A stretch of DNA of 64,000 nucleotides from Mycolicibacterium sp. HK-90. GTDB lineage: Bacteria > Actinomycetota > Actinomycetes > Mycobacteriales > Mycobacteriaceae. Shown here one piece after another: positions 1 through 14,042 of this stretch. The stretch spans positions 3,968,001 through 4,032,000 of the forward strand of contig NZ_CP129613.1 in the NCBI RefSeq assembly GCF_030486405.1, given 5' to 3'. The position numbers and the translations under genes are program-made. Under the pieces are notes generated by a model, which saw only the letters and a program-made list of their open reading frames with translations, made no database searches and was not told where the DNA came from. Position 1 is the stretch's first letter, and each line of letters starts with the position of its first letter.

Positions 1-3
1 TGG

Positions 4-267
4 TCACGCGGCGCTCCTCACGGGCACGAAGCCCAGGTTCTCGGGGGTCCAGAGGTCGGCGCGCCGCCACTGGTGGCCGCACCGGTCACAGGCGTACTCA
101 CAGATCAGGCGCGTGCCGCCGCGCCAGGTGACGGCATCAGGCTCGGTCTGGGTGCACAAGCGAACGCAGCGGTCCGCGTGGTGGCCCGCCGGGTTGCACT
201 CGGGGCAGTAGTCGGGCAACCAGAAGTCATCGAACTGGCTGGATTTCGGGGCGGTCTTGGTCGTCAT
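4..267 (-). CDS. small zinc-ribbon protein of the integrated element
   Basis: Encodes about 87 residues with paired cysteines and histidines spaced as in zinc ribbons: CPEC near the N-terminus, a HxxxxC/C pair, then CDRCGH near residue 65. This suggests a structural Zn site and nucleic-acid or protein binding, but no specific family is recognised. I chose the ATG at 267 because a GGAG element lies six bases upstream; an in-frame GTG at 279 would add four residues. It is the last visible gene of the leftward operon that includes the HEAGH protease and the virion-like protein, 66 bp after the protease gene. Function unknown. Confidence 0.55.
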   Translation of the reverse strand: MTTKTAPKSSQFDDFWLPDYCPECNPAGHHADRCVRLCTQTEPDAVTWRGGTRLICEYACDRCGHQWRRADLWTPENLGFVPVRSAA

Positions 268-333
268 GTTGGGCTCCACGGGGCTCGTCGTTGGGGTTTC
301 GTCGGGGTGCCGTGGTTGTGGTGGCCGAACGGG

Positions 334-1032
334 TCAGGCGGCGGGCGCAGGCGTCTTGGTGAACGGCGGCACCTGGTGGCCACCGCTGCGGAGGCTGGCC
401 AGCTGGACGCTGGTCATGCCGCCGCCGTCGGTGACGCCCAGGGCGGCGCACACGTCATCGTGATGGGCCTCCCCGGTGAGGTGGAGCTGACGCGCGACGG
501 TCAGCACAGCGGGCCAGCACCGCTCCAGGATCGGCTGGACGTCGGCCCCGGTATGGAGGCCCCCGGCGGCGGTGAGGACTCGTTGGTCGCGGCAGCCGTG
601 GCCATCGAACGCCGCGAACAGCTGGCGCTGAGACGGCCGACGGCCAGCCAGCCACCGCGCCTCGGCCCAGGGACCGGCATACGCGAACTCGGGCGCGCGG
701 CCCTGCGGCATGGTGTCGGCGAAGTAGTAGGTCTTGCCCTTGAGGCCGTCGCGCAGCTCCCCGACGACCGTGTTGCGCAGCTCCGCGCCGAGGGCCACCG
801 CCGCCACTGAGTGGCCCGCCTCATGGACGGCCACGGCCAGGGCCTGGCGGTCAACGGTCATCGGTTCACGGCGCGGCGGCGTGCTCGGCTTGGGCGTGCT
901 CAGCGGCTTCTGGCCGGGCCGGGGCGCGGCGGCGATCGGGGTGGGGCGGGTGCCGCCAGCAGCGGCCAGGGTGGCCCTGACGGCGGCGCTGGCCACGGTG
1001 GCCACCAGCTGGGCGGTGGTCATATCGGTCAT
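334..1032 (-). CDS. HEXXH (M41-like) zinc metalloprotease-type protein
   Basis: A 232-residue protein with the motif HEAGH at about residues 70-74 followed by SVAAVALG, the zinc-binding helix pattern of FtsH-type (M41) peptidases. There is no AAA+ ATPase domain and no membrane segment. The first 60 residues are Ala/Pro-rich and probably disordered. GAGAGGAC just upstream supports the ATG at 1032. Free-standing M41-like domains are known from actinobacterial phages and mobile elements, where their role is unsettled. Its place two genes after a virion-like protein makes processing of a structural or regulatory protein possible, but that is inference. The usual third zinc ligand is not obvious. 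Confidence 0.6.
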   Translation of the reverse strand: MTDMTTAQLVATVASAAVRATLAAAGGTRPTPIAAAPRPGQKPLSTPKPSTPPRREPMTVDRQALAVAVHEAGHSVAAVALGAELRNTVVGELRDGLKGKTYYFADTMPQGRAPEFAYAGPWAEARWLAGRRPSQRQLFAAFDGHGCRDQRVLTAAGGLHTGADVQPILERCWPAVLTVARQLHLTGEAHHDDVCAALGVTDGGGMTSVQLASLRSGGHQVPPFTKTPAPAA

Positions 1033-1065
1033 GGTTTGTCCTCTCGGTTGGTCATCACCGGGTCG

Positions 1066-1353
1066 TCACGATCTCGGGCCAGCGCCGGAAACGGTGGTCG
1101 GTACAAAACTCGGAGCACCACCGTTCCGGCGCTGGCCGCTCACCCGACCTGACGAGTCGTTGTTGTGGAACGTCTTGTAGACCAGCCGCTCACGCGCCCG
1201 TCGGTCCTTCGCGTCGGCGCGGGCGGCGCTGGTGTGGAGGTAATCGTTGAGGCAGCCCGCGCAGGTGTAGCCCCACTTGCTGCCCTTCCAGCTGAAACAG
1301 GGGCCGTCGCACACCTCGCAGCGCGGACCGGTGTAGCCCTCAGCGGTGGTCAC
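1066..1353 (-). CDS. small Cys-rich zinc-ribbon-like protein
   Basis: About 95 residues starting at a GTG two bases after the stop of the upstream gene, which implies translational coupling. The N-terminal half contains CEVCDGPC and CAGC, a CxxC...CxxC arrangement typical of small zinc ribbons or HNH-like zinc knuckles. The rest is basic and polar. No catalytic motif is visible. It lies in the leftward operon between the virion-like gene and the HEAGH protease gene. Homology to a named family cannot be claimed; a DNA-binding or virion-accessory role is only a guess. Confidence 0.45.
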   Translation of the reverse strand: MTTAEGYTGPRCEVCDGPCFSWKGSKWGYTCAGCLNDYLHTSAARADAKDRRARERLVYKTFHNNDSSGRVSGQRRNGGAPSFVPTTVSGAGPRS

Positions 1354-1355
1354 GG

Positions 1356-2165
1356 TCAGCCGATCTCGACCGCACCGACCAGGCGTTCGTAGCCGACGAC
1401 CACGCTCCGCTCGGCGATGGCGATGAAGCTGTTCGCGCGCTCGTCGGTCGCGGTGCGCACCTGGACGTCCGACCGCCAGCCGAACGGCTGGCTGGTGGCC
1501 ATCAGGGTGGAGGTAAGGCCGGCGATGTAGCCGCCGCCGAACACCCAGCGGTGGCCCAGCGGCGTAGTCAACCCGGTGCCCGAACGGATCAGCAGGTTGG
1601 CCTGAGCGGCCCGCGCCGCCCACCCTGTCGACGCGTGGATGAACCCCTGGGTGTTGGTGCGCCCGAGGGCGTCCTCCAGCTGACTCACGGCGTCAACGAT
1701 GTCGTCGGCCTGGCCGGGATTATCGGAGTCGGTGAGCAACCGGGCGGCGAACTGGCGCTCGACGGCGTTCTGCTCCTCCAGCCGGAACACCTGGGCGGCG
1801 CGCTGGTGGACCTCGGTCTGAGACGGTTCGGTCAGATCGCACTCGTCAGCGGCCCAGACCGTCATCGCCTCGAACGGGGCCGGGTTCTCAGGCCGCAGCC
1901 CCGCCTTGCGGTCATCGGGCGTCAGGTCATCAAGGGAGGCGCACCAGTCGGCGTTCCACACGCCGAACGATGTCTCGCCGCCGTAGTTGCCCGCCGGGCG
2001 GATCTGAACACCGCCGTCGAGCCAGCGGGTCGGCCCGGTCTCGGGCGTCCATTGGGTGGCCCCGTAGAGGCCGTTCGGAGCCGGGTTGACCGGCGGCGGC
2101 GTAAACGGCACCGCAAGCATCGAGTCGTAGGTGCTGATGGGGAAATTGGTCAGGCCAACGGTCAC
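1356..2165 (-). CDS. phage virion-like structural protein (putative)
   Basis: A 269-residue protein whose C-terminal half resembles structural proteins of actinobacteriophages and prophage-like elements. A segment beginning IHAS... (possible surface loop) is followed by GHRWVFGGGY, and it ends with a region containing AIAERSVVVGYE, a pattern I associate with phage head proteins. The GTG start overlaps the upstream stop by four bases (GTGA). It sits mid-operon between a gene of unknown function and a zinc-ribbon gene. No portal, large terminase or tail genes are visible, so if this is a capsid-type protein the element would be a satellite rather than an autonomous phage. The family assignment is by pattern memory only. 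Confidence 0.4.
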   Translation of the reverse strand: MTVGLTNFPISTYDSMLAVPFTPPPVNPAPNGLYGATQWTPETGPTRWLDGGVQIRPAGNYGGETSFGVWNADWCASLDDLTPDDRKAGLRPENPAPFEAMTVWAADECDLTEPSQTEVHQRAAQVFRLEEQNAVERQFAARLLTDSDNPGQADDIVDAVSQLEDALGRTNTQGFIHASTGWAARAAQANLLIRSGTGLTTPLGHRWVFGGGYIAGLTSTLMATSQPFGWRSDVQVRTATDERANSFIAIAERSVVVGYERLVGAVEIG

Positions 2166-2824
2166 AGGGTCACTCCTAGTTCGGCGAGTTCGGCTCGGGC
2201 GCGGTCGGCCTCGGTGATGGCCTGGGCCGGGTTGGCGGCTCGGGTCGGCTCGTCACGGGCGAGGCGGCGTTCCAACGCCCGCGCGGCGTGGTCAACCTCG
2301 GCCAGGGCACGGAGAACACGGTCCGACACGACACTGGTCAGGGCGTTGCCTAGCAGGCGGGCCAGCTCGTCGCTGTAGGGCTCGGCCAGCTCGGCCAAGG
2401 TCTGAGCCCAGGTGCCGGAAGCTACGTCGTCGGTGCCGATCTCGGGCATGACCGGACGCTGAGCCAGGGCGCGCGCGGCGGCGAGAGCGCGCCCGCGCTG
2501 GTCGATGGGCAGGTGGCGGGTGCGGCGTTGGGCGTCGGCCTCGGCCAGCAAGGCCACCACGGTGTCAACGAGCTGGCGCACGGCGTCGGTCGCGTCCTCG
2601 ACGTATCGGAGATAGGTCCGTGGGGCGCGGCGCGCGGCCACGCGCTCGGCCAACGGTTGACAGAGTGCGGCGACCTCGGTGGTGAGGCTCCAGCCGCCAG
2701 GCAGCGTGACGCGATAGCCCTGGACCCGCCGCTCCTGCAGCTCGGCCTGGGTGTACGTCGGAACAGGGCCCCCGGCTCGGCGGGCCAGCGCGGCGGGCGT
2801 GCGGTTCTTGGCGCGGATGGTCAT
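2162..2824 (-). CDS. conserved mobile-element protein of unknown function
   Basis: A 220-residue, Ala/Arg-rich, mostly helical protein that I do not recognise. The N-terminus (about 40 residues) is basic. The centre contains long amphipathic helices (LVDTVVALLAEADAQRRTRH and around ALAEVDHAARALERRL) that suggest coiled-coil packing. The ATG overlaps the stop of the upstream gene (ATGA), and its own stop overlaps the GTG of the virion-like gene, so all are translationally coupled. In a phage-like operon, a protein of this shape directly before a virion protein could be a scaffold or head-assembly factor; that is inference from position. Confidence 0.45.
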   Translation of the reverse strand: MTIRAKNRTPAALARRAGGPVPTYTQAELQERRVQGYRVTLPGGWSLTTEVAALCQPLAERVAARRAPRTYLRYVEDATDAVRQLVDTVVALLAEADAQRRTRHLPIDQRGRALAAARALAQRPVMPEIGTDDVASGTWAQTLAELAEPYSDELARLLGNALTSVVSDRVLRALAEVDHAARALERRLARDEPTRAANPAQAITEADRARAELAELGVTL

Positions 2825-3084
2825 AGGGCCGCTGCCGCCGGTGACTCGGTGTCGGCCTCGGCTTGCTGGTCGAGCTGGTCGGCCAGATCCTCGGCGGCAG
2901 CCTCGGACACCCCGGCCTTGACGAAGGTGGCCCGGTTGCGCCACCAGTCCAGCGCCGCCGCGCATTCCTCGACGCGCGGGCCGGTGGTCTCACCACGGCT
3001 GGCGAGAACGGCCTTGCGCCCGCGCCATGACTCCATGGACCGAGTGCGTGGGTGGGCCGTGGTGGCGTTGTCGGGTGCTGTCAT
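2821..3084 (-). CDS. first gene of left operon, small helical protein
   Basis: An 87-residue acidic protein of unknown function, predicted helical, with a C-terminal run rich in Glu, Asp, Ala and Gln. It is the first gene of the leftward operon that ends at position 4. There is no good Shine-Dalgarno before the ATG at 3084, so the message may be leaderless. Sixty to ninety bases upstream lies a near-perfect dyad (3147-3171) that is repeated at 11246-11266 in front of the excisionase-like gene. This suggests the operon is controlled by the element's own regulator. Confidence 0.5.
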   Translation of the reverse strand: MTAPDNATTAHPRTRSMESWRGRKAVLASRGETTGPRVEECAAALDWWRNRATFVKAGVSEAAAEDLADQLDQQAEADTESPAAAAL

Positions 3085-3146
3085 AAACGTCAGTGTGCCA
3101 CTACCGGCGGCGTGTAACTAGGTCGAAACACGTTGCGGCACAATCA

Positions 3147-3171: not shown

Positions 3172-3208
3172 AAAGCGCTACGCGGCTGGTCACGCGGCTG
3201 GAGACGCC

Positions 3209-3483: not shown

Positions 3484-3924
3484 TCATGTAGGTCGCCTCG
3501 ACTCTGCCTGTCGAGCGCGAACCGTCGCGGTGACCCGCTCGGCGGCTTCGGTGATGTCGTCGTGCTCCCAGACGGTGACCACCGCCCACCCGTCGGCCTC
3601 CAGCGCGGCGCGCTTCCGTTGGTCGCGCTCGACGGTCCCGGCGATCTTGCTCGACCAGAACTCGGCGTTGCGTTGGCTCGGGCGGTGATGCTCGGGGCAT
3701 CCGTGCCAGAAGCAGCCCAACACCTCCACCGCCACGCGCGCCCTGGGAAACACCACATCGACCGTCATCCGTGAGTCGGGGATCGGGCGGGCGTTCACCC
3801 GGTACCGCAGCCCGGCGGCGTGAAGAGCCCGCCGCAGCGCCATCTCAGGCCCGGTGTCACGGCCTCGGTTGGCGCGCATTACGTTGCGCACGGCGTCGGA
3901 TGACGCCCAGGACTCCGACGGCAC
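3484..3924 (-). CDS. vsr: Vsr very-short-patch repair endonuclease
   Basis: Nicks DNA 5' of the T in T:G mismatches produced when 5-methylcytosine deaminates, and so limits C-to-T mutation at sites of the adjacent methylase. The 146-residue product has family hallmarks: NRGRDTGPEMALRRALHAAG near the N-terminus, TVDVVFPRARVAVEV (catalytic Asp strand), GCFWHGCPEH (Zn/His region) and a C-terminal VVTVWEHD. I chose the GTG at 3924 because it gives the usual family length and starts just before the conserved core. A start further upstream (to 4017) would translate the 10-bp tandem repeat and looks unlikely. Divergent from the methylase gene; together with the nuclease gene it forms a restriction-modification island. 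Confidence 0.85.
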   Translation of the reverse strand: MPSESWASSDAVRNVMRANRGRDTGPEMALRRALHAAGLRYRVNARPIPDSRMTVDVVFPRARVAVEVLGCFWHGCPEHHRPSQRNAEFWSSKIAGTVERDQRKRAALEADGWAVVTVWEHDDITEAAERVTATVRARQAESRRPT

Positions 3925-3960
3925 CCCGCCGACGGTACCGCTGATGCTGGGCGGTCCCGA

Positions 3961-4010
3961 GTGACACCGAGTGACGTCCAGTGACGTCCAGTGACGTCCA
4001 GTGACAGCGA
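3961..4010. repeat. 10-bp tandem repeat between vsr and the methylase gene
   Basis: Three exact copies of GTGACGTCCA (3971-4000), flanked by two degenerate copies (GTGACACCGA at 3961 and GTGACAGCGA at 4001). It lies in the only gap between divergent vsr and the methyltransferase gene. The unit contains the palindrome TGACGTCA-like core GACGTC and repeats with about one helical turn. This fits a binding array for an autoregulator, or simply replication slippage. Confidence 0.7.
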
Positions 4011-4051
4011 GCCTCATCCACCGCCCCGAGGCCTACGGATAGTGTTCGCGT

Positions 4052-5278
4052 GTGCGTTCGGTGGAACTGTTCGCGGGGGCGGGCGGGCTGGCCCTCGGCT
4101 GTGAGATAGCTGGGTTCGAGACCCTTCGCGTGGTCGAGTGGGACCGATGGGCCTGTGACACGGTGCGTGAGAACGCCGCCGTCGACTACCCGTTAGTGCG
4201 AAACTGGCAGGTCAACGAGGGTGACGTGCGCGCCGTGGACTGGTCAACCCTCACCGAGCCGGTGGACCTAGTGGCCGGTGGCCCGCCCTGCCAGCCGTTC
4301 AGCATGGGCGGCAAGGCTAGGGCGTCCGACGACACCCGCGACATGTTCCCGGCCACCGCCGAGGTGATCCGTCAGTTGAGGCCGCGCGCGTTCATCATTG
4401 AGAACGTCCGTGGGCTGACACGGGCGGCGTTCGCGAACTACTTCGAGTACATCAAGCTGCGCCTGGAGCACCCCGAGATGGCCAGCCGTGAGGGCGAGAC
4501 CTGGACCGACCACCTGGCCCGTCTCCAGCGCGAGCACACCTCGGCCACCTCAGAGGATCTGACCTACAAGGTGGTGCCGACGTTGGTCAACGCCGCCGAC
4601 TACGGCGTGCCTCAGCAGCGGTGGCGGGTGTTCTTCGTAGGGTTCCGTAGTGACGTCCCAGCGGAGTGGGCGTTCCCGAAGGCCGATCACTCGAAAGAGG
4701 CCCTGGCGCACTCTCAGTGGGTCACCGGCGACTATTGGGACCGTCACCGCATCGCGCGCAAACACCGCCCCGACCCGACCCCGGCGCTGATCCGCCGGGC
4801 TCAGCTATTGGCCGAGATGGAACCCGAACTGCGGCCCTGGCGCACCGTCCGTGACGCGATCAAGGGCCTTCCCGAGCCGACTCGGGCCGGTAGCTCCAAG
4901 CACCTCAACCACGTACTCCAACCGGGGGCGCGGTCATACCCCGGCCACACGGGCAGCCCGATTGATCAGCCCTCCAAGGCCCTCAAGGCGGGGGTTCATG
5001 GCGTGCCGGGTGGTGAGAACATGCTGCTGAGGCCCGATGGAAGCATCCGCTATTTCACCGTGCGTGAGGCGGCGCGACTCCAGACCTTCCCCGAACGGTA
5101 CGAACTACACGGCGCGTGGTCGGAAGCCATGCGCCAGCTCGGCAACGCGGTGCCGGTGCTGCTGGCTCAGAAGGTGGCGTCATCGGTGGCCGAGCACCTG
5201 GCCGAAGCCGCAGTCCGTGAGGAGCTGGCCCGGCGCAAGACGGCGCGTGAGACCAAACGGCGGCGGACCACCGCGTGA
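4052..5278 (+). CDS. DNA (cytosine-5)-methyltransferase of a type II R-M system
   Basis: C5-cytosine methylase, 408 residues, that protects host sites from the linked endonuclease. Motif I is FAGAGGLALG near residue 8, the catalytic motif IV is GGPPCQPFS near residue 77 (nucleophile Cys), motif VI is ENVRG, motif VIII is QQRWRVFFVGFR, and motif X is LGNAVP near the C-terminus. The start is a GTG; its stop overlaps the GTG of the endonuclease gene (GTGA), so the two are coupled. The neighbouring Eco29kI-type nuclease suggests CCGCGG as the target, but specificity cannot be read from the target-recognition domain by eye. Confidence 0.93.
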   Translation: MRSVELFAGAGGLALGCEIAGFETLRVVEWDRWACDTVRENAAVDYPLVRNWQVNEGDVRAVDWSTLTEPVDLVAGGPPCQPFSMGGKARASDDTRDMFPATAEVIRQLRPRAFIIENVRGLTRAAFANYFEYIKLRLEHPEMASREGETWTDHLARLQREHTSATSEDLTYKVVPTLVNAADYGVPQQRWRVFFVGFRSDVPAEWAFPKADHSKEALAHSQWVTGDYWDRHRIARKHRPDPTPALIRRAQLLAEMEPELRPWRTVRDAIKGLPEPTRAGSSKHLNHVLQPGARSYPGHTGSPIDQPSKALKAGVHGVPGGENMLLRPDGSIRYFTVREAARLQTFPERYELHGAWSEAMRQLGNAVPVLLAQKVASSVAEHLAEAAVREELARRKTARETKRRRTTA

Positions 5279-5886
5279 CGGAACCGTTCAACCCCCTCGA
5301 CATGGAAAACCTCGGCGAGAGCATCGCGACGAAGCTGCTCATCAGTGACCCGACGCCGCTGGGCGCGGTGCCGCAGTTCTACGGGGCGGGCGTGTACGCG
5401 ATCTACTACAACGGCCCGATGGAGTGCTACTCGGCGCTGCTTACCGCCACCGTGCACGGCGCCCAGATACCCATCTACGTCGGAAAGGCCGTTCCGGCGG
5501 GCGGTCGGCGCGGCATCGCCGTCGAACACGGCACCCGGTCACGGGCTCTGTCGGCTCGGCTGCGCACCGATCACGCTCGGAGCGTGGAGGCGGCGACCAA
5601 CCTGGATATTGCGGACTTCACCTGCCGGTGGCTGGTGGTGGAGCCGATCTGGATCCCGCTCGGTGAGAGCGTGCTGATCTCGCGGTTCACCCCGGTCTGG
5701 AATGGCCTGCTCGACGGGTTCGGCAACCACGACCCCGGCGGTGGGCGTCTGGCGGGCGTGCGCTCGCGGTGGGACACGCTCCACCCTGGCCGGTCGTGGG
5801 CGCACAAGTACCCGGCGCGAACCGAGACCGCCGAGAACGTGGCCACTGATGTGGCCGAGTACCTGGCCCAGCGGTATCAGGTCTAG
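5275..5886 (+). CDS. Eco29kI-family GIY-YIG type II restriction endonuclease
   Basis: A 203-residue endonuclease of the GIY-YIG fold. The motifs are GVYAIYYNG (first tyrosines) and IPIYVGKAVPAGGRRG (YVGK plus the following arginine), with a glutamate later (GESVLIS). This arrangement and length match R.Eco29kI, which cuts CCGCGG; the same specificity is inferred, not shown. Translationally coupled to the methylase by a four-base overlap, so methylase is made first. A hairpin at 5921-5950 ends the transcript. It would act as defence cargo of the integrated element and could also stabilise the element by post-segregational killing. Confidence 0.85.
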   Translation: MTEPFNPLDMENLGESIATKLLISDPTPLGAVPQFYGAGVYAIYYNGPMECYSALLTATVHGAQIPIYVGKAVPAGGRRGIAVEHGTRSRALSARLRTDHARSVEAATNLDIADFTCRWLVVEPIWIPLGESVLISRFTPVWNGLLDGFGNHDPGGGRLAGVRSRWDTLHPGRSWAHKYPARTETAENVATDVAEYLAQRYQV

Positions 5887-6297: not shown

Positions 6298-6452
6298 TCT
6301 CGCCCCGATTCCTGCATGTCCCATGTCAGCACAGCCATCGCCGCCTCGGCCAGCTCCTTGCCCGCGTACAGCGTGTCATCCTCGGTCGGGCCGCGCCCGC
6401 CCCAGCGCGCCAGGGCGGTGGACAGTTGCTCGACCAGGTGAGCCGGGATCAT
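6294..6452 (-). CDS. 52-residue hypothetical protein, resolvase operon
   Basis: A small acidic helical protein (starts MIPAHLVEQLSTALARWGG). Its ATG overlaps the resolvase stop (ATGA) and its stop overlaps the next start. Four-base overlaps on both sides argue that this short frame is real. No domain is recognised. Confidence 0.5.
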   Translation of the reverse strand: MIPAHLVEQLSTALARWGGRGPTEDDTLYAGKELAEAAMAVLTWDMQESGRE

Positions 6453-7246
6453 CGGTCGGCCACCTGGCGGTCCATCTGGGTGAAGTGCCAGCTTGTCCCC
6501 GGCCACTGGCCCGGCTCGGCGTGCGCCGCCTGAAGGTTGCGCATCCGCGCGGAGACCGCCGTCGGCGTACGCCCGAGCTGATCGGCCAGCGCCTTCACCT
6601 CGGCGTGCTGAGCGGTGAGCTTGCCGTGCTGGCGGAACAGGTCATCCACCGCGATGATGTCCGCCTCGGTCCACGGCTCAGGTGCCACCCGCTCCTTGAC
6701 GTTGTAGACGGTGGCCCGGCTGACGCCGTACTCCCGGGCCAGCGCCGAGGCCGAGTCGCCCTCGATCAGCCGCTGAGCCACCGCCTCGGCCACTTCCTCC
6801 TCCAGCGACGGCACCCGGCCCTTGTAGACGCCTTTGTCCTTCGCAATGGCGATGCCCTCACGCTGGCGCTCCAGCAGCAGGGCGCGTTCGAACTCGGCCA
6901 CCGCGCCCATCACCGACAGCATCAACACGGCGCACGGGTCGGACGTGTCTCGGGTGAAGGTCAGGCCCTCCTTGACGAACCGCACGCTGACACCGCGTGC
7001 GGTCAGCTCATCAACGGTGCGGCGCAGGTCAACCAGTGACCGGGCCAGCCGATCCATGCTGTGCACCACCAGCTCGTCGCCCTCGCGGACGTACCCCAGG
7101 CACTCGGTGAGCGCGGGCCGGTCGGTGTCTTTTCCGCTGGCGTGGTCGGTGAACACCTTGTCCAATTCGAGCCCGTCCAGTTGGCGCTCGGTGTTCTGCT
7201 CGGCGGTGCTAACCCGCACGTAGCCGACGGTTTGACCCTTACTCAT
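6449..7246 (-). CDS. serine recombinase, resolvase/invertase type
   Basis: A 265-residue small serine recombinase. The catalytic domain (residues 5-145) has YVRVSTAEQ with the nucleophile Ser13, SMDRLARS with active-site arginines, and the E-helix region AEFERALLLERQREGI. A resolvase helix-turn-helix follows (SALAREYGVSRATVYN, about residues 165-185). Unlike TnpR, it carries about 70 extra C-terminal residues with a second HTH/SANT-like segment (LADQLGRTPTAVSARMRNLQ). AAGGGG lies just before the ATG. The element already has a tyrosine integrase, so this enzyme probably resolves multimers or inverts DNA rather than integrating. A candidate recombination site lies immediately upstream. Confidence 0.88.
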   Translation of the reverse strand: MSKGQTVGYVRVSTAEQNTERQLDGLELDKVFTDHASGKDTDRPALTECLGYVREGDELVVHSMDRLARSLVDLRRTVDELTARGVSVRFVKEGLTFTRDTSDPCAVLMLSVMGAVAEFERALLLERQREGIAIAKDKGVYKGRVPSLEEEVAEAVAQRLIEGDSASALAREYGVSRATVYNVKERVAPEPWTEADIIAVDDLFRQHGKLTAQHAEVKALADQLGRTPTAVSARMRNLQAAHAEPGQWPGTSWHFTQMDRQVADR

Positions 7247-7261
7247 ACCTGCCCCTTGGTT

Positions 7262-7327
7262 GTCTAGATGATCTCTTGAGTCATCTTAGACTACCGTCTA
7301 TCAAAGTGCCACCCACCCTAGTTAGAC
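7262..7327. promoter_or_regulatory. candidate res site for the serine resolvase
   Basis: The resolvase upstream region contains a 30-bp imperfect dyad, GTCTAGATGA (7262-7271) facing TCATCTTAGAC (7281-7291). Next comes TAGAC-N4-GTCTA (7287-7300) and a further GTTAGAC (7321-7327). A crossover dyad of about 28-30 bp followed by accessory repeats of the same half-site is how TnpR-type res sites are built, and they usually sit directly upstream of the resolvase gene. Also likely autoregulatory. The 7247-7379 gap holds nothing else. Confidence 0.45.
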
Positions 7328-7379
7328 GGAAGATGTCGCCGGGCCGGGAGTCTCACATGGCTAGAGCCCAGATAGACAG

Positions 7380-7856
7380 CTACCGGCGCGTGCCGCCGGG
7401 GTTCCAGCCGCGCAGCGGGTCGTAGCCACCGCTCGGCGTGGCCAGGCGCAGAGGAACCACGGGCGCGGCCTCGGTCACCGGCTCGGCGGGGACATCGGTG
7501 ACGGCCTCGGGCTCAACAGATTCGGCGATGAGCGCCACGGTGGGCAACGAAACCGGCTCGGGCGGGGTCTGATCAGGGTCGGGCTGGCTGACGGGCTCAC
7601 CGGCCCTATGGCGGGCCACGGCCAGCCACTCGGCCAGCTCGTCGGCGGGAACGCCGCCGACGGCCAGCACGCCGCGCGCGATCTCGACCTGGAGCGCGAA
7701 CAGCGGGTCACCCTCACCGATGACGGTGCCGACCAGGGCGCGCAGCTCGGTTTGGAGTTGGGCCTCCAACGTGGCGGGGCTCAGTCGGCCCTCGGCCACG
7801 TCATCGGCGATGGACATCGCGCCGTTGATGGCGTCCCGCTTGGTGATGGTGGTCAT
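7380..7856 (-). CDS. hypothetical acidic protein with Pro/Val-rich tail
   Basis: A 158-residue protein. The N-terminal 75 residues look helical (KRDAINGAMSIADDVAEG and following). The remainder is a low-complexity Pro/Glu/Val/Ala linker ending in GGYDPLRGWNPGGTRR. The start overlaps the upstream HTH gene stop by four bases (ATGA), giving a two-gene operon. The function is unknown. In phage-like elements a helical-plus-disordered protein after a terminase-like HTH protein could be a packaging or replication accessory, but nothing in the sequence proves this. Confidence 0.5.
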   Translation of the reverse strand: MTTITKRDAINGAMSIADDVAEGRLSPATLEAQLQTELRALVGTVIGEGDPLFALQVEIARGVLAVGGVPADELAEWLAVARHRAGEPVSQPDPDQTPPEPVSLPTVALIAESVEPEAVTDVPAEPVTEAAPVVPLRLATPSGGYDPLRGWNPGGTRR

Positions 7857-8311
7857 TCCAGCTCCTTCTGTTCGATTACCTCGGCGTCGACCACGGCCAG
7901 CAGCCGCTCGCGGGCTTCGGCGATGATCTGGGTCGGGGTCTGGGTCACGTTGATGTTCAGCACCTCCGGTTCGTAGAGCCCGCCGATCTTGGCCAGCTCG
8001 GCCTCGTTGCGCAGGATCTCCCGGTTGAGGGTGACCAGGGTGTCGTCGTCGCCGTTGGCGAACGCCCGCACGAACCGCTGACTCAGGGCGCGGGTCCGCA
8101 GCTCTATCGCGGCCTTGTGGGTCTCGATGGTGGTAGGCGTGGCCTCACGCCGCTGGCGGGCCACGTGACGGCTCACGGCGGTCTGGGCCGCGCCGATGGA
8201 TCGGTACCCGAGGCGGTCGCAGACCTCACGCCAGCTGTGGCGGCTGGCGCGCAGCTTGAACGCTTCCTCGGCGCGGGCGCGGCTGGCGTACGCCGACATC
8301 TTCGGGGCCAT
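7853..8311 (-). CDS. HTH protein resembling phage terminase small subunits
   Basis: About 152 residues. An N-terminal helix-turn-helix (HSWREVCDRLGYRSIGAAQT, about residues 25-45) is followed by a helical segment, FANGDDDTLVTLNREILRNE, and a C-terminal AEARERLLAVVD region. The layout is like small terminase or homeodomain-type DNA-packaging proteins, which bind DNA near an origin or pac site. The gene starts directly beside the iteron region at 8402-8724, so a role in replication initiation or packaging recognition is attractive. An upstream ATG at 8329 would add six residues; neither start has a Shine-Dalgarno. Confidence 0.5.
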   Translation of the reverse strand: MAPKMSAYASRARAEEAFKLRASRHSWREVCDRLGYRSIGAAQTAVSRHVARQRREATPTTIETHKAAIELRTRALSQRFVRAFANGDDDTLVTLNREILRNEAELAKIGGLYEPEVLNINVTQTPTQIIAEARERLLAVVDAEVIEQKELE

Positions 8312-8401
8312 ACCGCATAAGTACCGCATGACCGTGCAGGGTCTCGGGGATGCGGGGCCGTCGGCGGGGGCGCGCAGCAGTGGGACGTTGCCTCACAACC
8401 A

Positions 8402-8724
8402 CATAACTCGAAATTCCGACCAAAACTGTTCTCTCATATAGATATTTCTCCCTCTCACCACTGACCTATTTTTCTTGGTTATGTTGGTTATGTAGTTATG
8501 AGAGCACACCCGGGAGGCCGGAATTACCCCACTGCCTGCGCTTACGCGCGTCGGGCGGAACCCCGAGCGCCGCCAACCGCGCCCGGTTATCTGCCGGTTA
8601 TATCGCCCCTGACGCCGGTTATCGGCCCCGCGCGCCGGGCCATGACGCCGCCGAGACCCCCGCGAGTGGCGTTGCCGGTTCATAACCGGCCCCCATAACC
8701 GGCTCATCACCGACAGATAACCGG
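8402..8724. other. probable replication origin: AT-rich region plus iterons
   Basis: The 400-bp gene-free gap next to the primase-helicase gene contains an AT-rich stretch (8402-8500) and a repeat array. Inside the AT-rich part are tandem TTGGTTATG copies (8475-8483, 8484-8492) and a related TAGTTATG (8493-8500). The GC-rich part has three CCGGTTAT copies at 8583, 8594 and 8615, and three inverted ATAACCGG copies at 8682, 8695 and 8717. Steps of 11 and 21 bases in one arm and 13 and 22 in the other are near whole helical turns, so the array is roughly a mirror image. An AT-rich unwinding zone plus phased iterons beside a D5-type primase is the usual make-up of a plasmid or satellite origin. 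Confidence 0.65.
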
Positions 8725-8728
8725 GCTC

Positions 8729-10807
8729 TCAGTTGAGGTTGCCGGGCATCGGGTCGCCGCCGACGGCGGTGGAAACCGTCCGCGTGATCGGCACACCGTA
8801 CTGACCCCGGTCGGTGTACGCGGTCTCAGCGCCCTTGACGCCCCAGACGACCCTGGGGCCGTTGAACTTCTGGCCCGGCTTGATCGGGTCGAGGTACAGC
8901 GCCTTGAGCGCCGACCGGAAGTTGACGTGCGATCCAGGGTTGTGGCCGTTGGTCTCGGCCCAGTGCTTCCACACCACGTACAACCGGGCCGAGTCCACCT
9001 GGTCGCACTCGCAGTTGCGGTGGGTGTGAGCCTCAGCGGCACCGACGACGCAGCACTCCGCGATGAACCGTCGAACCGGCGCGGCCTTGTCGTTGACCTC
9101 CTGGGCCAGCTCCTCGGCGCGCTGGGTCCGGGTGAACGCCCCACCCGAGCTGTCGAGCAGCGTCAAACCCTCCACGGCCCAACGCAACACCAGCCCCAGC
9201 TCATTGGCCAGGATGCGCCGCTTGAGGCCGGTGTCCTCGGTGTCGGTGTCACGGAAGCCCCGACTGGTCTCCAGCAGCAGGGCGCGGCGTTGTAGGGCGC
9301 TGCTGTTGTCGGACCACCGAGGGATCTCATTGGCCGAGGCGTGGAACCTCACCCCCAGCTTGGCCGACACCGCCGCCTTGTACTTCCGCGCCACCGACAC
9401 CACGTCCTCACCCGTGACCGCCAGCAGGTTCTCCACCGCCGTGCTGGAGTCGCGAGTGCTGAACCGAATGTCACTGAGCACGGCCAACTGAGCGCCGGTC
9501 TCATACAGGCCCTGCAGCCCAAACTGGGAGTTGAGGTCGTCCAGCTTGGTGGCGGTGACCAGCCCGGCCAGCGCACCCAGCACGTCCGCGATGATCGACT
9601 TGCCGCTTCCGCTCGGGCCGATGATCAGCAGCCACTTCTGAAGGTCGGTGCGCCCGCTGATGACGTACCCGAACCACTGTTGCAGGCAGGTGATCGCGCC
9701 GGGATCATCGGGCCACTGAGTCCGCAGCATCCGCTGCCAATCGCTGTCGGCGTCAGGGTCGGTGGCGTGGTCGTAGTCAGCCTCAATGCGCGTCAGGCTG
9801 AACCACAACGGCGTGTTCAGATCGAGAGCGCCAGTGCTGACGTCAAGCACACCATTGCGCACCAGCACCCGCGTGCCGCCGCTGTACGCGCCCTGGTGAC
9901 GGCCATAGGCGTCAGCCAACTCTCGGGCGTGGGTGCCGGTGCCGACGGCCAGGGCGTCGGCCAGCGCGTCCTCCACCATCGCCAGAGTGCGGGTGTCGGG
10001 GTTCCACGCTCTGAGCGAGTACTCGTTGCCGGCCTGGAGCTGCCGGGTCTTCACGTACCAGACATCGGCCAGCACCTCCCGCAGCAGCCCGCGCATCCAC
10101 TCGGGGTCGGTGTGGGCCACCCAACGCGGCGGATCCCCAGCGGCGGTGAGCTCGTAGCGGTACCAGGTCTGGTCGATGCGAATCAGCGTGCGCATCCACG
10201 CCTTCCGCCGCCGTCGGGTACCCGGCGCGGTCGGCAACCGCAGCCGAGCGATGAACCGATGCCGCACCAGCCAGCGGGCCACGTATGTCGACGCCTGAGG
10301 CGGCGCGATCACCCTGCCCTCCACCACCTTGGCCTGCGCCTCGGGGTCCAGCGTGTTGTAGATCGACTCGGGAACACCGTTGATGCGTTTCTCGGCGGCG
10401 CTGGCGGCGGCGTCCAGGTCGGGGTCAGTGACCCACCGCGCGCGCATCAGCTCGATCTCGGGGTCGGGGCTGCTGTCGGCCTCGGCGAAGTCGCGGACGT
10501 CCTGGCGCGTCGGCACGGCCACGCCCCGGTCAGTGAACCCCTCGGCCACCATCTCGATGGGAACGACCGGTACATCCTCAACCCAGGGGTCCAGATCGGG
10601 CTTGCCGGTGTGGTGATCGATCAGAACGCGCCCGTGGTCGAGGGTTTGGCGCTGCCAGTCCACGATGATGCGCGCGATGTCATCACCCACAACGGAACTC
10701 AGCGGATCGGTGGGGTCGGCGTTCCAGAGGGTGGCCAGGTGCGCGCCGCTGACGTAAGCGGCGGGCTCGACAGCAGCAGCGGTCCCGTTGTCGGGGGTAA
10801 GCTTCAC
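8729..10807 (-). CDS. D5/P4-type primase-helicase of the integrated element
   Basis: A 692-residue replication protein. The C-terminal half is a superfamily 3-like helicase of the phage/plasmid primase (P4) family. Walker A is GPSGSGKS (about residue 400), a Walker B-like strand is AQLAVLSDI, and the sensor/SANEIP region ASANEIPRWSD is followed by an arginine-finger segment, ALQRRALLLE. The N-terminal half is diverged and probably carries the D5 N-domain. A GTG at 10807 preceded by AAGGAAC with a short spacer is the best start; an in-frame start 42 bases upstream lacks such a signal. The stop is four bases from the last iteron, so the protein probably acts at that origin to replicate the excised element. 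Confidence 0.85.
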   Translation of the reverse strand: MKLTPDNGTAAAVEPAAYVSGAHLATLWNADPTDPLSSVVGDDIARIIVDWQRQTLDHGRVLIDHHTGKPDLDPWVEDVPVVPIEMVAEGFTDRGVAVPTRQDVRDFAEADSSPDPEIELMRARWVTDPDLDAAASAAEKRINGVPESIYNTLDPEAQAKVVEGRVIAPPQASTYVARWLVRHRFIARLRLPTAPGTRRRRKAWMRTLIRIDQTWYRYELTAAGDPPRWVAHTDPEWMRGLLREVLADVWYVKTRQLQAGNEYSLRAWNPDTRTLAMVEDALADALAVGTGTHARELADAYGRHQGAYSGGTRVLVRNGVLDVSTGALDLNTPLWFSLTRIEADYDHATDPDADSDWQRMLRTQWPDDPGAITCLQQWFGYVISGRTDLQKWLLIIGPSGSGKSIIADVLGALAGLVTATKLDDLNSQFGLQGLYETGAQLAVLSDIRFSTRDSSTAVENLLAVTGEDVVSVARKYKAAVSAKLGVRFHASANEIPRWSDNSSALQRRALLLETSRGFRDTDTEDTGLKRRILANELGLVLRWAVEGLTLLDSSGGAFTRTQRAEELAQEVNDKAAPVRRFIAECCVVGAAEAHTHRNCECDQVDSARLYVVWKHWAETNGHNPGSHVNFRSALKALYLDPIKPGQKFNGPRVVWGVKGAETAYTDRGQYGVPITRTVSTAVGGDPMPGNLN

Positions 10808-10870
10808 AGTGTTCCTTCGGATTTTGGTCGGTCTGAGGGGCTGACCCACTGGAGCGGGTCGTCGTTGGGG

Positions 10871-10928
10871 TGATGCCGCCCTGGCTCACATCGCGCCGAA
10901 GCCAACCGCGCGGAGCCGGGCGGCATCA
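10871..10928. repeat. long inverted repeat upstream of primase gene
   Basis: TGATGCCGCCC (10871-10881) pairs perfectly with GGGCGGCATCA (10918-10928). The complementarity continues into GGCTC/GAGCC with a one-base shift. It lies between the excisionase-like gene (stop at 10968) and the primase start (10807), both on the minus strand. It could be an attenuator or terminator between early genes, or a replication protein site. The 10808-10967 gap holds nothing else I can identify. Confidence 0.5.
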
Positions 10929-10967
10929 CTGCTGTCAGGGGTCAATCACGCTGTGGCCCTCCCGGTC

Positions 10968-11168
10968 TCACGCATCAGCCGGGCGGACAGGCGTCAGTAG
11001 AGCGTCGACATCGCTGACCTTGACCCGAAGATCCGACGTCGGGCTGGTCCGGTACGCGGGCAACAGGCCCTCACGGATGCGGCGCTGAATCGACCACGGC
11101 GACAGGCCGACCCGCTCCCCGGCCTCACGTAGCCCGATGAACCGGTCAGTGCTGGTGGCGTTGGTCAC
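10968..11168 (-). CDS. excisionase/AlpA-type HTH protein
   Basis: A 66-residue MerR-fold DNA-binding protein. LREAGERVGLSPWSIQRRIR forms the helix-turn-helix (residues 12-31), followed by the wing EGLLPAYRTS and VSDVDALLTP. This is the standard shape of recombination directionality factors and AlpA regulators. I chose the GTG at 11168 because AAAGGAGG lies six bases upstream. The repeated operator copy 2 (11246-11266) sits 78-98 bases upstream. It is probably the excisionase that, with the tyrosine integrase, frees the element; a regulatory role is equally possible. Confidence 0.65.
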   Translation of the reverse strand: MTNATSTDRFIGLREAGERVGLSPWSIQRRIREGLLPAYRTSPTSDLRVKVSDVDALLTPVRPADA

Positions 11169-11245
11169 GGCTGGCCTCCTTTCAGTGGCGGCATCTGAGG
11201 GCAACTAGAGCAGACGACCGTGCAGACCCTCGGTGAGCGACGGCT

Positions 11246-11266
11246 GAGTTACCCGAGTCAGGTAAG
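11246..11266. promoter_or_regulatory. dyad operator, copy 2 (excisionase-like gene)
   Basis: Begins GAGTTACCCGAGT and ends GGTAAG on the plus strand, matching the dyad at 3147-3171 read on its minus strand, except for a three-base shorter centre. It overlaps the stop of the upstream HTH gene (11258) and lies in front of the excisionase-like gene. Together with copy 1 it marks two promoters likely governed by one regulator. Confidence 0.5.
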
Positions 11267-11509
11267 CATTGTGGCCGTGGCGGTCTCGGTCTCCCCCGCC
11301 AGCAGCGTCAGCAGCTTGGCGGTCGGCACGCGCTTCCGCTTGGCGCTCAGGTGGATCACGGGCAGTCGGCCCGTCTTGGCCATCGAGTAGGCGAAAGCCC
11401 TTGACACGCCGAGGTATTCAGCGGCGGTCTCGATGCTCACGGTGGGCGGACCCTGGCGCAGGCGCTCCAGCGACGGGTAAGTCTTCGTGGTGTCGGTTGA
11501 ATCAGGCAT
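11258..11509 (-). CDS. small HTH (excisionase-family) regulator
   Basis: An 83-residue protein with a MerR/excisionase-type helix-turn-helix, VSIETAAEYLGVSRAFAYSM (about residues 24-43), then a TGRLPVIHLSAKRKRVP wing. It is divergent from the plus-strand gene preceding the integrase, across a 69-bp AT-rich gap, which is the usual place for an element's immunity repressor or switch protein. The partner HTH gene at 10968-11168 follows on the same strand. Which of the two is excisionase and which is repressor cannot be told from sequence. Confidence 0.6.
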   Translation of the reverse strand: MPDSTDTTKTYPSLERLRQGPPTVSIETAAEYLGVSRAFAYSMAKTGRLPVIHLSAKRKRVPTAKLLTLLAGETETATATMLT

Positions 11510-11578
11510 GTCTTCACAGTGGCCTGATTAGTGATAGTTGTCTAGGCGTTTTGCTATCTTTGTGGTTATCATCTTTTC
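11510..11578. promoter_or_regulatory. divergent switch promoter region
   Basis: An AT-rich 69-bp gap between the leftward HTH gene and the rightward integrase operon. TAGTGATA occurs at 11529-11536 and again at 11584-11591, just inside the plus-strand gene. TTATCA (11566-11571) is the inverse of TGATAA (11587-11592). TATCTT at 11555-11560 is a possible -10 for the plus-strand gene, whose GTG follows 18 bases later. The repeats look like operator half-sites for one of the element's HTH proteins. Confidence 0.35.
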
Positions 11579-12160
11579 GTGACTAGTGATAAGCCCGAGT
11601 TCACGCCCATCGCGGGCGACGTGATGGCTGACGACATCCGCCGTGTGAGCGGCAAGCGTGGCAGCGACAACGGTCTGATCGAGATCCCGCTGTACGGGCA
11701 CGGTTTCCGCTACCAGGTGCGGATCGACCGGAGCGGCGGAACGCCGCGCCTCACTGAGCTGCGGATGGTGTGCGCCGCAGACGGCGGTGACATAGACCCC
11801 GCCGCCGTGCGCAACGTCCCGGTGCGCCGACTGGCCAAGGCCGCTGCCAAGTTCGTCTCACTGACCGAGCACGGCATCGCGGACGCCGGTGACATGTACG
11901 ACCCGACCGGCCCGGCCCGGCCCGACCTGGAGCCAGGAAAGCGCCGCCGCAACCTCGGTGACGAGCACTACCGCCAGGTCGCCGCGCAGATCAGTTGGGC
12001 GCGGGAGATTGGCCTCGCGCCACGGGATTACGCCGCCGACTACTTCGGGGTGACTCTCCCCACCCTGGACCGCTGGATCGCCCAGGCCAAGAAGCGCGGT
12101 TTCCTTCGCCGCGACTGGAGCACCGCCACCGCTGACGCACAGGAGACCGAGCAGCCATGA
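11579..12160 (+). CDS. HTH-containing protein upstream of and coupled to the integrase
   Basis: A 193-residue protein of unknown function. The N-terminal half looks like a beta-rich domain (LIEIPLYGHGFRYQVRI), and the C-terminal third contains a helix-turn-helix (APRDYAADYFGVTLPTLDRW, about residues 145-165) and a basic tail. It starts with GTG, with a possible -10 close by. The stop overlaps the integrase ATG by four bases (ATGA), so it is made together with the integrase. It could be an integration accessory factor or a regulator of the switch region. Genes of this shape preceding integrases are common in mycobacterial integrated elements, as far as I recall. Confidence 0.55.
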   Translation: MTSDKPEFTPIAGDVMADDIRRVSGKRGSDNGLIEIPLYGHGFRYQVRIDRSGGTPRLTELRMVCAADGGDIDPAAVRNVPVRRLAKAAAKFVSLTEHGIADAGDMYDPTGPARPDLEPGKRRRNLGDEHYRQVAAQISWAREIGLAPRDYAADYFGVTLPTLDRWIAQAKKRGFLRRDWSTATADAQETEQP

Positions 12161-13542
12161 CCACCGACCCGCAGCCCGCCAAACGCACCCGCCGAGCCGA
12201 GCCGGTCACCAAGCACGTGGCCAAGAACGGCGCGGTGTCCTACCGCTTCCGCGTCGATCTGGGCATCAACCCTGACGGTTCCCGTCTACGGCAGCAGTTC
12301 ACCTATCCCACGCTGGCCGAGGCCCGCAAGGAGTACCGGCGCATCTCCACCGAGGTGGCGGCGGGCACCTTCGTGAAGCGCGACACAACCACCGTGGCTG
12401 AGTTTCTGACCGAGTGGCTGGACGCCCGGCGCGACATCCGACCGGGCACGCTCACCGGGTACCGCTACTCCCTCAAGCCGGTCATCGACCATCTCGGTGT
12501 GATCCCGCTGCAACACCTGCGGACTGCCGACCTCGACGCCCTGGTGACGTTGCGCATGGCGGGCCAGCCGGTGGCGCAGAGAGACAAGCGCGGACGCCGG
12601 TCGGCTGAGGTGCTGGCGTGGCTGCGGGCGCGCCCTGACGGTGCGAGCTACGCCGAGGTGTACGCCGAGTTCGGCAACCCCGGCGAGCGGGCGCTGGCCC
12701 GTCTCGCGGCGTCCGGTGAGGTGACCCGGCCCGCGCGCGGTCGGTATGCCGCCGCCCGGCCCGCCGATCCCGAGCGCCCCAAGGTGGCCGGTGGGACCAG
12801 CGCGCGCACGGTGGTCACGATGTTGGTGGTCTTGTCCTCGGCGCTCGATGACGCGATGGCCCAGGGCCTCGTCGCCCGCAACGTCGCCCGGCTGGTCAAG
12901 CGGCCCAAGGTGACCACCACCGAGATGGCCACCTGGTCACCGGAACAGGCGGCGGCGTTCCGCGCCCATGTGACCGATGACCGGCTGGCGGCGTGCTGGC
13001 TGCTGACGCTGGCCGGGTTGCGCCGCTCAGAGGTGCTGGGTCTGCGGTGGGCCGACGTCGACCACGACGCCGGGACCATCACCGTGGCCCAGGGCCGCGT
13101 GGTGGTCGGCGGCGGCACGGTGACCGGCGCGCCCAAGTCCACCCGCTCAGCGCGGACGCTCCCCATGCCGCGTGACGTGCTGACCGCGTTGCGGGCGTTC
13201 AAGACTCGGCAAGCCGAGGAACACCTGGCCCTCGGCGCGGGCTGGCCCGATACCGACTTGGTGGCGGTCAACGCCGATGGCTCCCCCATCCGGCCCGAGA
13301 CCTACTCCAAGGTGTTCGCCGCTCACTGCGCGGCGGCGGGCGTCCCGGTGATCCGGCTGCACGATGTTCGGCACACCGCCGCCACCATGCTGCTCGACGG
13401 TGGAACCACGCCCTCGGCCACCGCCAAGTGGCTGGGCCATGACCCGGCTATCACGCTTCGGGTCTACGGCCACGTCTACGACGACGCGCTGGCATCGGCG
13501 GGTGACGCCCTGATGGGCCGGTCACGCGCGAGCGCCGACTGA
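12157..13542 (+). CDS. int: tyrosine site-specific integrase
   Basis: A 461-residue tyrosine recombinase that inserts and excises the element at the adjacent tRNA-Val gene. The N-terminal arm-binding-like strands (YRFRVDLGIN, residues 29-75) lead into the core-binding domain from about residue 78. The catalytic domain (from about 255) has AGLRRSEVLGLRW (Arg I), a beta-hairpin lysine (PKSTRSARTLP), HDVRHTAATML (His-x-x-Arg), LGHDPAITL and the nucleophile Tyr in RVYGHV. Residues 136-210 are unusual: a winged-helix-like insert (SAEVLAWLRARPDG to ARGRYAA) splits the core-binding domain before it resumes at GGTSARTVVTMLVVLSSALD. The ATG overlaps the upstream stop. Confidence 0.92.
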   Translation: MTTDPQPAKRTRRAEPVTKHVAKNGAVSYRFRVDLGINPDGSRLRQQFTYPTLAEARKEYRRISTEVAAGTFVKRDTTTVAEFLTEWLDARRDIRPGTLTGYRYSLKPVIDHLGVIPLQHLRTADLDALVTLRMAGQPVAQRDKRGRRSAEVLAWLRARPDGASYAEVYAEFGNPGERALARLAASGEVTRPARGRYAAARPADPERPKVAGGTSARTVVTMLVVLSSALDDAMAQGLVARNVARLVKRPKVTTTEMATWSPEQAAAFRAHVTDDRLAACWLLTLAGLRRSEVLGLRWADVDHDAGTITVAQGRVVVGGGTVTGAPKSTRSARTLPMPRDVLTALRAFKTRQAEEHLALGAGWPDTDLVAVNADGSPIRPETYSKVFAAHCAAAGVPVIRLHDVRHTAATMLLDGGTTPSATAKWLGHDPAITLRVYGHVYDDALASAGDALMGRSRASAD

Positions 13543-13544
13543 CC

Positions 13545-13922
13545 TCAGGCGTACAACGCCACGACGTTGGCCACCGCTCCGAGCCCGAGACCCCCGACCA
13601 ACAGACCGACGGCGGTCCAGCGACGTCGGTCGCTCACGTCGTTCTCAGCGGTGACGTACTTATATAGCGCCTCCTGCGCGGGCTCGGGCCAGCCGATCTT
13701 GGCGGCTTGGTCCCAGTCGGCCTTGAACTGCCGCATGTTGCGCCGACCCGTCACCGCATCGCGGATCACGCCGTAGGCACCAACGGCTTGCAACAACGAA
13801 CTGGCGACGTAGAGGACCAGGGCGACGACCGTCACGGCTGCGACGTTATGCCGTGCCGCGCCGCCGCTCCGCCACGGGGCTGACCACCTTGGCCATTTCT
13901 TGGCCACTCGGGGGGTTGTCAC
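13545..13922 (-). CDS. small membrane protein at the element's attachment end
   Basis: A protein of up to 125 residues with two predicted membrane segments, AAVTVVALVLYVASSLLQAV near the N-terminus and TAVGLLVGGLGLGAVANVVA at the C-terminus. A cytosolic or external loop rich in charged residues joins them. Convergent with the integrase (2 bp between stops) and 45 bp from the tRNA 3' end, so it is the last gene of the element. The start is uncertain: GTG at 13922 gives 125 residues, while GTG at 13835 gives 96 and begins just before the first membrane segment. Function unknown; superinfection exclusion would be a typical role, but there is no evidence for it. Confidence 0.45.
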   Translation of the reverse strand: MTTPRVAKKWPRWSAPWRSGGAARHNVAAVTVVALVLYVASSLLQAVGAYGVIRDAVTGRRNMRQFKADWDQAAKIGWPEPAQEALYKYVTAENDVSDRRRWTAVGLLVGGLGLGAVANVVALYA

Positions 13923-13967
13923 AAACCGACCGCGACCCGCAGAAACGGCTGTGACCAGACTTTTTAA

Positions 13968-14042
13968 TGGTGGGCGCGGAGGGTTTCGAACCCCCGACCG
14001 CTGGTGTGTAAAACCAGAGCTCTACCACTGAGCTACGCGCCC
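13968..14042 (-). tRNA. tRNA-Val (anticodon UAC)
   Basis: A complete 75-nt cloverleaf on the minus strand. The acceptor stem is GGGCGCG/CGCGCCC, followed by A and an encoded CCA. The D-arm begins TAGCTCAG, the anticodon stem is CTGGT/ACCAG with loop TTTACAC (anticodon TAC), and the T loop is TTCGAAA. It reads GUA and other valine codons. Its 3' end faces the integrase 425 bp away, so it is the probable attachment site, with the element lying to the left. The mycobacterial prophage phiRv2 is also reported to use a tRNA-Val gene. Confidence 0.95.

Follow-up and report, generated by a model that had tools for sequence, protein, structure and literature searches.

How could an integrated element that carries a phage capsid gene of the pentamer type, and in which neither a hexamer nor a portal gene was found, be packaged and transferred? 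The question arises at the left end of a 64,000-nucleotide stretch of Mycolicibacterium sp. HK-90 (NCBI RefSeq assembly GCF_030486405.1, contig NZ_CP129613.1, positions 3,968,001 to 4,032,000; hereafter the window), which is G000:C1:3968001-4032000 of the 6.49-Mb single-contig genome in our labelling of genomes (G), contigs (C) and loci (L). The element there, inserted at a tRNA-Val gene, is very probably a phage satellite. The explanation that serves best as a whole, and towards which we lean with moderate confidence, is a helper-dependent satellite whose own terminase would package its DNA into shells with hexamers from a helper phage and pentons from the satellite itself.

The integrated element totals 16,473 bp, its left 2.5 kb lying beyond the window edge. 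A search with the tRNA-Val region located a second copy of the tRNA 3′ half at genome 3965490-3965539 (92% over 50 bp, direct orientation), and the two attachment (att) copies match from the acceptor end up to the anticodon loop and diverge there. An earlier note on this DNA had proposed a satellite-like element at tRNA-Val with its own replicon, and had tied the proposal to a repeat of the tRNA end left of the window and to there being no full set of morphogenesis genes just outside it. The repeat is present, and the remaining 2.5 kb holds terL and two small open reading frames (ORFs, counted from 80 amino acids (aa) upwards), with no such set. The proposal is still the best reading. Inward from the tRNA come the integrase, a 193-aa protein, two HTH_17 genes, the primase, the iterons, a TerS-like gene, a 158-aa protein and a serine recombinase, followed by a Vsr/C5-methyltransferase/Eco29kI-type cassette, an 87-aa protein, a helical protein, the pentamer homologue, a metalloprotease, a 91-aa CxxC protein and terL (Table 1). 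The integrase adjoining the tRNA 3′ end, two excisionase-type helix-turn-helix (HTH) genes, D5/P4-type primase, iteron array, terminase-small-like HTH gene, virion-like gene and metalloprotease of the earlier note are all borne out, the virion-like gene now being assigned to the phage pentamer family (phrog_779).

Table 1. Features of the element inside the window (positions of the window; attL and most of terL lie to its left).
Feature	Position	Strand	Remarks
terL 5′ end, as the open frame reads	1..82	-	gene at L003:8502-10082 (genome 3966502-3968082)
91-aa CxxC protein adjoining terL	4..279	-	present in many relatives
HExxH metalloprotease, M50B-like (hallmark 2)	334..1032	-	HExxH motif; Peptidase_M50B 0.014, under the cut-off
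Capsid pentamer-protein homologue, 269 aa	1356..2165	-	phrog_779; HK97-type predicted fold
All-helical protein, gene immediately 5′ of the pentamer gene, 'up267' (hallmark 1)	2162..2824	-	candidate scaffold/size-determining protein
87-aa protein	2821..3084	-	present in some relatives
Vsr-type endonuclease	3484..4017	-	family scans
C5-cytosine DNA methyltransferase	4052..5278	+	family scans
Eco29kI-type restriction endonuclease	5275..5886	+	family scans
Serine recombinase/invertase-like	6449..7246	-	family scans
158-aa protein	7380..7856	-	phrog_27872
TerS-like HTH protein	7853..8329	-	PHROG 645; putative TerS role
A+T-rich stretch adjoining the iterons	8400..8500		A+T 0.60-0.65
Six CCGGTTAT iterons, 3 forward and 3 reverse	8583..8724		presumed origin or packaging site
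D5/P4-type primase-helicase	8729..10849	-	DUF5906 1.7e-11; PHROG DNA primase 1.6e-49
Second HTH_17 excisionase-like gene	10968..11204	-	HTH_17 5.6e-4 (below Pfam's own cut-off); PHROG excisionase 7e-8
HTH_17 excisionase-like gene	11258..11509	-	HTH_17 8.4e-8
193-aa protein beside int, function unassigned	11579..12160	+	present in some relatives
Tyrosine integrase	12157..13542	+	Phage_integrase 9.8e-19; 93% identical to G034 satellite integrase
attR, tRNA-Val 3′ half	13963..14012		direct repeat of attL at genome 3965490-3965539
tRNA-Val(TAC), integration target	13968..14042	-	tRNA call

The element belongs to a recurrent family that can be told apart from prophages by gene content. A pentamer homologue was present in 41/297 same-genus genomes, this one counted, and 40 pentamer stretches of up to 20 kb each were fetched (G158:C87, a 4.5-kb contig, and G272, with the gene in two pieces, were omitted). 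Profiles for hexamer, portal, MuF, major tail, adaptor and tape measure proteins, built from named phages, matched in 9/9 prophage loci and in 0/31 satellite loci, the hexamer count excluding an N-terminal segment in L057 and L058. None of these proteins was detected in the HK-90 element with the same profiles, and Pfam and PHROG scans of it returned no portal, connector or other such structural family. A separate contig scan using the pentamer protein as query found no relative; it must be insensitive, because it missed what the genome search found. Among viral contigs (80 of 120, several covered in part only), eight carry the metalloprotease, seven of them with the helical protein, and lack hexamer, portal, MuF and tape measure genes. 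In the other 72, a hexamer gene was present in 71, the last being a 4.4-kb fragment, and the two hallmark genes in none. Six long satellite viral contigs measure 14,845-18,511 bp. No terminal repeats indicating circular contigs were seen in the eight, of which partial stretches were tested and several are incomplete.

A tblastn search of 50,697 phage records with the helical protein and the metalloprotease gave no match at an expectation value (E) of 0.01. Within the 31 satellite loci, tblastn recovered the helical protein in 27 and the metalloprotease in 30, the exception (L050) sitting on a truncated contig. All 32 metalloproteases examined, those of this element and L035 among them, have the HExxH motif, and 12/13 match Peptidase_M50B at E up to 1, the best at 3e-7; the match of this element's own metalloprotease is 0.014 only, under the cut-off. 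The helical protein is predicted to be a helix bundle with a C-terminal helix on a low-confidence link (mean confidence 83). A profile of it detected relatives in 40/297 genus genomes and in 4/397 genomes drawn from the order, three of these belonging to this genus and one, weaker (7.9e-32), to another genus of the family (G579:C67:131950-132594, L212); the satellite type may thus extend past this genus. Ratios of non-synonymous to synonymous change (dN/dS) were 0.11-0.37 for the pentamer (9 pairs), 0.28-0.71 for the helical protein (8 pairs), 0.27-0.63 for the metalloprotease (8 pairs) and 0.16-0.59 for TerL (7 pairs), below 1 in every pair tested, as computed by a simple counting method with synonymous sites near saturation in some pairs.

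These data bear on the idea that the element is a defective prophage, left by a phage of the hexamer/pentamer type after loss of its structural genes. Its pentamer and TerL are indeed homologous to those of such phages, and its TerL groups with Dori-type phages. However, the same reduced gene set recurs in 31 loci and eight viral contigs, the two conserved hallmark genes are unmatched in the phage records, dN/dS stays below 1 throughout, and by the profiles none of the 40 loci is intermediate, although the copy in G002 is rearranged and its pentamer gene split. We therefore regard decay from a prophage as very improbable.

The coat gene of the element is of the pentamer type. The 269-aa protein has 508 homologues among phage records annotated 'major capsid pentamer protein', and its phage relatives adjoin a separate hexamer-type gene in 14/14 phage records read. 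The predicted fold is HK97-type, and the structure alignment used 44/80 viral-contig pentamers (near-duplicates, then four odd-length rows, were removed); the pentamer profile gave no match by sequence to solved structures. In the pentamer tree (53/58 rows; L067 as partial, L036 as a fragment, Tonitrus as a long branch, and L035 and L055_1 as duplicates were left out), satellite and phage pentamers are interleaved. A single satellite clade is rejected (approximately unbiased test, p-AU 6.7e-53), and seven phage/satellite changes are needed, at least five of them forced by well-supported branches, with L069-Chah and L062-Opia as pairs. A placement of L066 beside Saguaro/Quesadilla in a quick tree with nine changes was absent from this careful tree and was not used. 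Separately, L055 (G153:C1 706000-725900) carries two identical pentamer genes, at 7121-7936 and 11616-12431, about 4.5 kb apart and with like-sized neighbours, which is probably a tandem duplication within one satellite; the same genome carries one more satellite, L049.

The element also brings a terminase. The earlier note had reported no portal, large terminase or tail genes; this stands for portal and tail, but we reject it for the large terminase, since terL lies directly left of the window, with all but its first codons outside (phrog_38 match 8.3e-87). TerL profiles also matched in 23/31 satellite loci. A TerS role for the HTH gene is suggested by its HTH and its position; the PHROG label 'Rnase E' (phrog_645) attached to it is doubtful, as the protein looks HTH-coil. 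In a second gene order (L067, L068, L072, L073, L075, L224), terL lies on the opposite side of the helical protein, closer to the TerS-like gene.

We infer helper dependence from gene content, and from the same genes we would predict excision, induction, a particle and a helper. The element would excise and then replicate from its own origin. A helper phage with separate hexamer and pentamer proteins would give hexamers, portal, connectors and tail, and the satellite would contribute its own pentons to the helper-hexamer shell, a part of the model on which we are evenly divided. The helical protein and the metalloprotease, as putative scaffold and processing factors, would steer assembly to a small shell (triangulation number about T=4), into which the satellite's own TerS and TerL would pack its DNA. 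Rosebush-type capsids are T=9 according to excerpts of the Rosebush structure paper (PMC7150772). Opia, a Rosebush-type phage, measures 67.4 kb. If capacity scales as T^1.5, a T=3 shell would hold 13.0 kb and a T=4 shell 20.0 kb; on these figures, which are arithmetic rather than proof of a shell, a 15-18.5-kb satellite would fit T=4.

Several observations weigh against this account. A search of the HK-90 genome with a single hexamer query, Dori's protein, found no homologue, and the only Terminase_6N match is the element's own terL, so no resident helper of the hexamer/pentamer type was found; other prophage types were not searched for. TerL was not detected in 7/31 satellites, and the contig of an eighth (L050) ends too soon to tell. 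The seven (L041, L053, L057, L058, L059, L071, L076) have the pentamer and the metalloprotease and no TerL detected in the fetched 20 kb; such satellites may use the helper's terminase. In the TerL tree (38/45 rows; L054, L035 and five short rows left out), a single satellite clade is rejected (p-AU 0.0085) with two changes needed, and the TerL of this element falls in a well-supported group of eight satellites, three phages and one prophage. The word 'pentamer' in the phage records is annotation, and excerpts of the Rosebush structure paper do not assign a pentamer gene (PMC7150772). A search with the helical protein returned no solved structure at E 0.001. In favour of the account, the first 66-71 or so residues of the metalloproteases of L057 and L058 resemble the N-terminal segment of the phage hexamer protein (E 2e-12 and 1e-20), a segment that comes before an acidic stretch in the phage protein and may be a scaffold-like delta domain. 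This suggests that the protease could be carried into procapsids of helper hexamer, perhaps as a means of entry into a foreign procapsid, yet the segment occurs in 2/32 metalloproteases only, the others showing none at E 0.05.

A further point against the account concerns the pentamer itself, which is absent from 10/40 genomes with the helical protein (L216-L225). In all ten loci the helical-protein gene is followed by that for the metalloprotease, the open frames being no more than 318 nt apart, and TerL is present in 9/10; profiles for pentamer, hexamer, portal, MuF, adaptor and tail gave no match. Ten proteins from two pentamer-less satellites matched no PHROG family named capsid, some of them matching families of unknown function. 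Presence of the pentamer requires four changes on the helical-protein tree (two forced by starred branches) and seven on the TerL tree (six forced), both being quick trees and helical-protein rows above 330 aa having been dropped for an uncertain start. Because these ten satellites have both hallmark genes without a pentamer, we rejected the pentamer as the family's core gene, and it cannot be the core device; an exchangeable pentamer speaks instead for a core device made up of the helical protein and metalloprotease. Transfer between phages and satellites seems more frequent for the penton gene than for the terminase (seven changes against two), as would be expected if pentons must fit the helper's hexamers. 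Tentatively, and with somewhat less than even confidence, we envisage a constant core of scaffold-like helical protein, metalloprotease and usually terminase, with the penton plugged in, lost or swapped with phages to match the helper hexamer, so that a change of the twelve vertices of a foreign shell, and of nothing else, would be enough to capture its size and identity. The same evidence touches the proposal that the 269-aa protein alone forms a small capsid, with the helical protein as scaffold, the metalloprotease as maturation enzyme, and portal, connectors and tail from the helper. A protein whose phage relatives sit beside a separate hexamer-type gene, and which is exchanged with phages and sometimes missing, suits a helper-matched part better than a sole shell protein, and we consider a self-made shell unlikely.

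Between the recombinase and the helical protein, the element carries a type II restriction-modification cassette (3484-5886) that is missing from the earlier note; in the helper-dependent model it would be cargo guarding the host against other phages. Restriction systems occupy this slot in five satellites (this element, L043, L045, L050 and L051). L045 and L050 have an Eco29kI-type endonuclease and methyltransferase 85-88% identical to those of this element, L043 has a methyltransferase and a GIY-YIG protein, and L051 pairs a methyltransferase with a protein that matches EcoO109I weakly (6.4e-5); the putative endonucleases of L043 and L051 were not recognized by PADLOC. The remaining satellites have different or scant cargo there. 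By gene content the slot is a defence hotspot with type II systems that differ by satellite. Such cargo would suit an element whose penton, helical protein and protease chiefly poison phage assembly, transfer being rare or by generalized transduction, and satellites are known to combine theft with interference. Its own TerL under purifying selection, TerS-like gene, primase and iterons would nonetheless be needless for pure defence, and we judge an interference element improbable, more so than a self-made shell.

The integration site is shared beyond the HK-90 element. A second satellite of the family lies at tRNA-Val in G034, with repeats 15.8 kb apart and an integrase 93% identical to this one. 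In G009 the same tRNA-Val holds a 13.6-kb element with a TrwC-type relaxase (L206, G009:C1 2268000-2287500) and a 71% identical integrase, so one integrase lineage serves both satellites and conjugative-type islands. This relationship is what would favour a conjugative or mobilizable island that carries phage genes by chance; Pfam scans of 22 element ORFs found no relaxase, and we give that reading very little credence, the least of any considered here. ARAGORN placed tRNA genes in 15/36 satellite stretches, including Val, Arg, Asn, Leu and Ala, a count of tRNA presence, integration sites having been examined for tRNA-Val only (this genome, G034, G009 and G002). In G002 a rearranged satellite (L207/L208) lies near tRNA-Val with its att repeat in the opposite direction and its pentamer gene in two parts on opposite strands, as though after inversion.

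The T-arm of the tRNA may hold a trace of the insertion. The form in attL is that of 10/14 same-genus relatives read, and the form inside the working tRNA-Val is that of 3/14, one relative being unlike either. This pattern would be expected if the element imported its own tRNA 3′ half and displaced the native half to the far end, though those three relatives show that the second form is found elsewhere too. L182 (G014) and L184 (G003) have a tRNA-Val with the element-type T-arm, the G014 copy without an adjoining element, which could be natural variation or a relic of an earlier insertion. The empty site in G014 has about 0.36 kb between the left flanking gene and the tRNA.

For replication, the six CCGGTTAT iterons are presumed to be an origin or packaging site. 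No further copies occur in the 64 kb, where 0.48 would be expected, and 0/100 shuffles reach six. Upstream of the TerS-like gene, 18/30 loci, this element included, have an 8-mer cluster denser than in all same-locus control windows, with 16 different 8-mers among the 18 (L035 and L038 being copies of one element); in the remaining 12/30 the cluster was not outstanding. The position is thus often conserved while the sequence varies. Three to four tandem copies of AGTGACGTCC lie within 3960-4005. This array (3970-4005) was rejected as the replication iteron, as it sits between vsr and the methyltransferase gene and the CCGGTTAT set suits better; it may serve to control the restriction cassette.

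P4 and the phage-inducible chromosomal island (PICI)-like element PLE have their own primase, origin and integrase, rely on helper structural proteins as is proposed here, and remodel helper capsids with Sid or TcaP. To our knowledge, both lack a coat homologue and TerL. P4 and Sid are covered in excerpts of PMC10690885. In SaPIbov5, a Staphylococcus aureus pathogenicity island (SaPI), the coat homologue Ccm fills the pentamers and the helper coat protein (CP) forms the hexamers, giving T=4 procapsids (PMC8569155). The Ccm SaPIs resemble this element in having a satellite coat homologue related to a helper coat protein, known here from genes only. They differ in that Ccm shares 24% identity with a helper CP able to make both capsomers (PMC8569155), whereas the homologue here is of a separate pentamer protein, and this element, unlike SaPIbov5, brings TerL and two unrelated hallmark genes. 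Capsid-forming PICIs (cf-PICIs) have their own terminases, an HK97-fold protein, portal, head maturation protease and connectors (PMC10690885); the present element shares with them TerL and a protein of predicted HK97-type fold, its TerS being suggested by HTH and position only, but no portal or connector was found in it with related-phage profiles, Pfam or PHROG. MulchRoom and MiniFlayer are also actinobacterial satellites with their own terminase and coat gene, and they have portal, major capsid protein, scaffold and adaptor genes and no primase, in contrast to the primase and missing portal here (PMC10690885).

Closest in host are the candidate Mycobacterium PICIs of Abad et al. 2023 (PMC10654092), which have an integrase and a major capsid protein, some at tRNA genes and some with helicase, terminase or scaffold; this element may already be listed among them. 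There the coat gene is called a 'major capsid protein', whereas here it is of the pentamer type only; the main text of PMC10654092 has no occurrence of 'pentamer', and its excerpts mention neither the absence of hexamer and portal nor the hallmark genes. Neither a penton-only satellite nor the phrase 'capsid pentamer protein' was found in the literature searched (titles, and abstract openings for satellites). Mycobacterial satellites are already known, and within that literature the penton-only design is the new aspect.

Satellites are known to shrink helper capsids through scaffolds or a modified coat protein. If the reading proposed here is true, a satellite with only the vertex protein, beside sisters without it, would offer a direct test of how penton supply sets capsid size, and lysates of hexamer/pentamer-type mycobacteriophages would be predicted to contain small particles. 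As marker genes, those for the helical protein and the metalloprotease separate such satellites from prophages.

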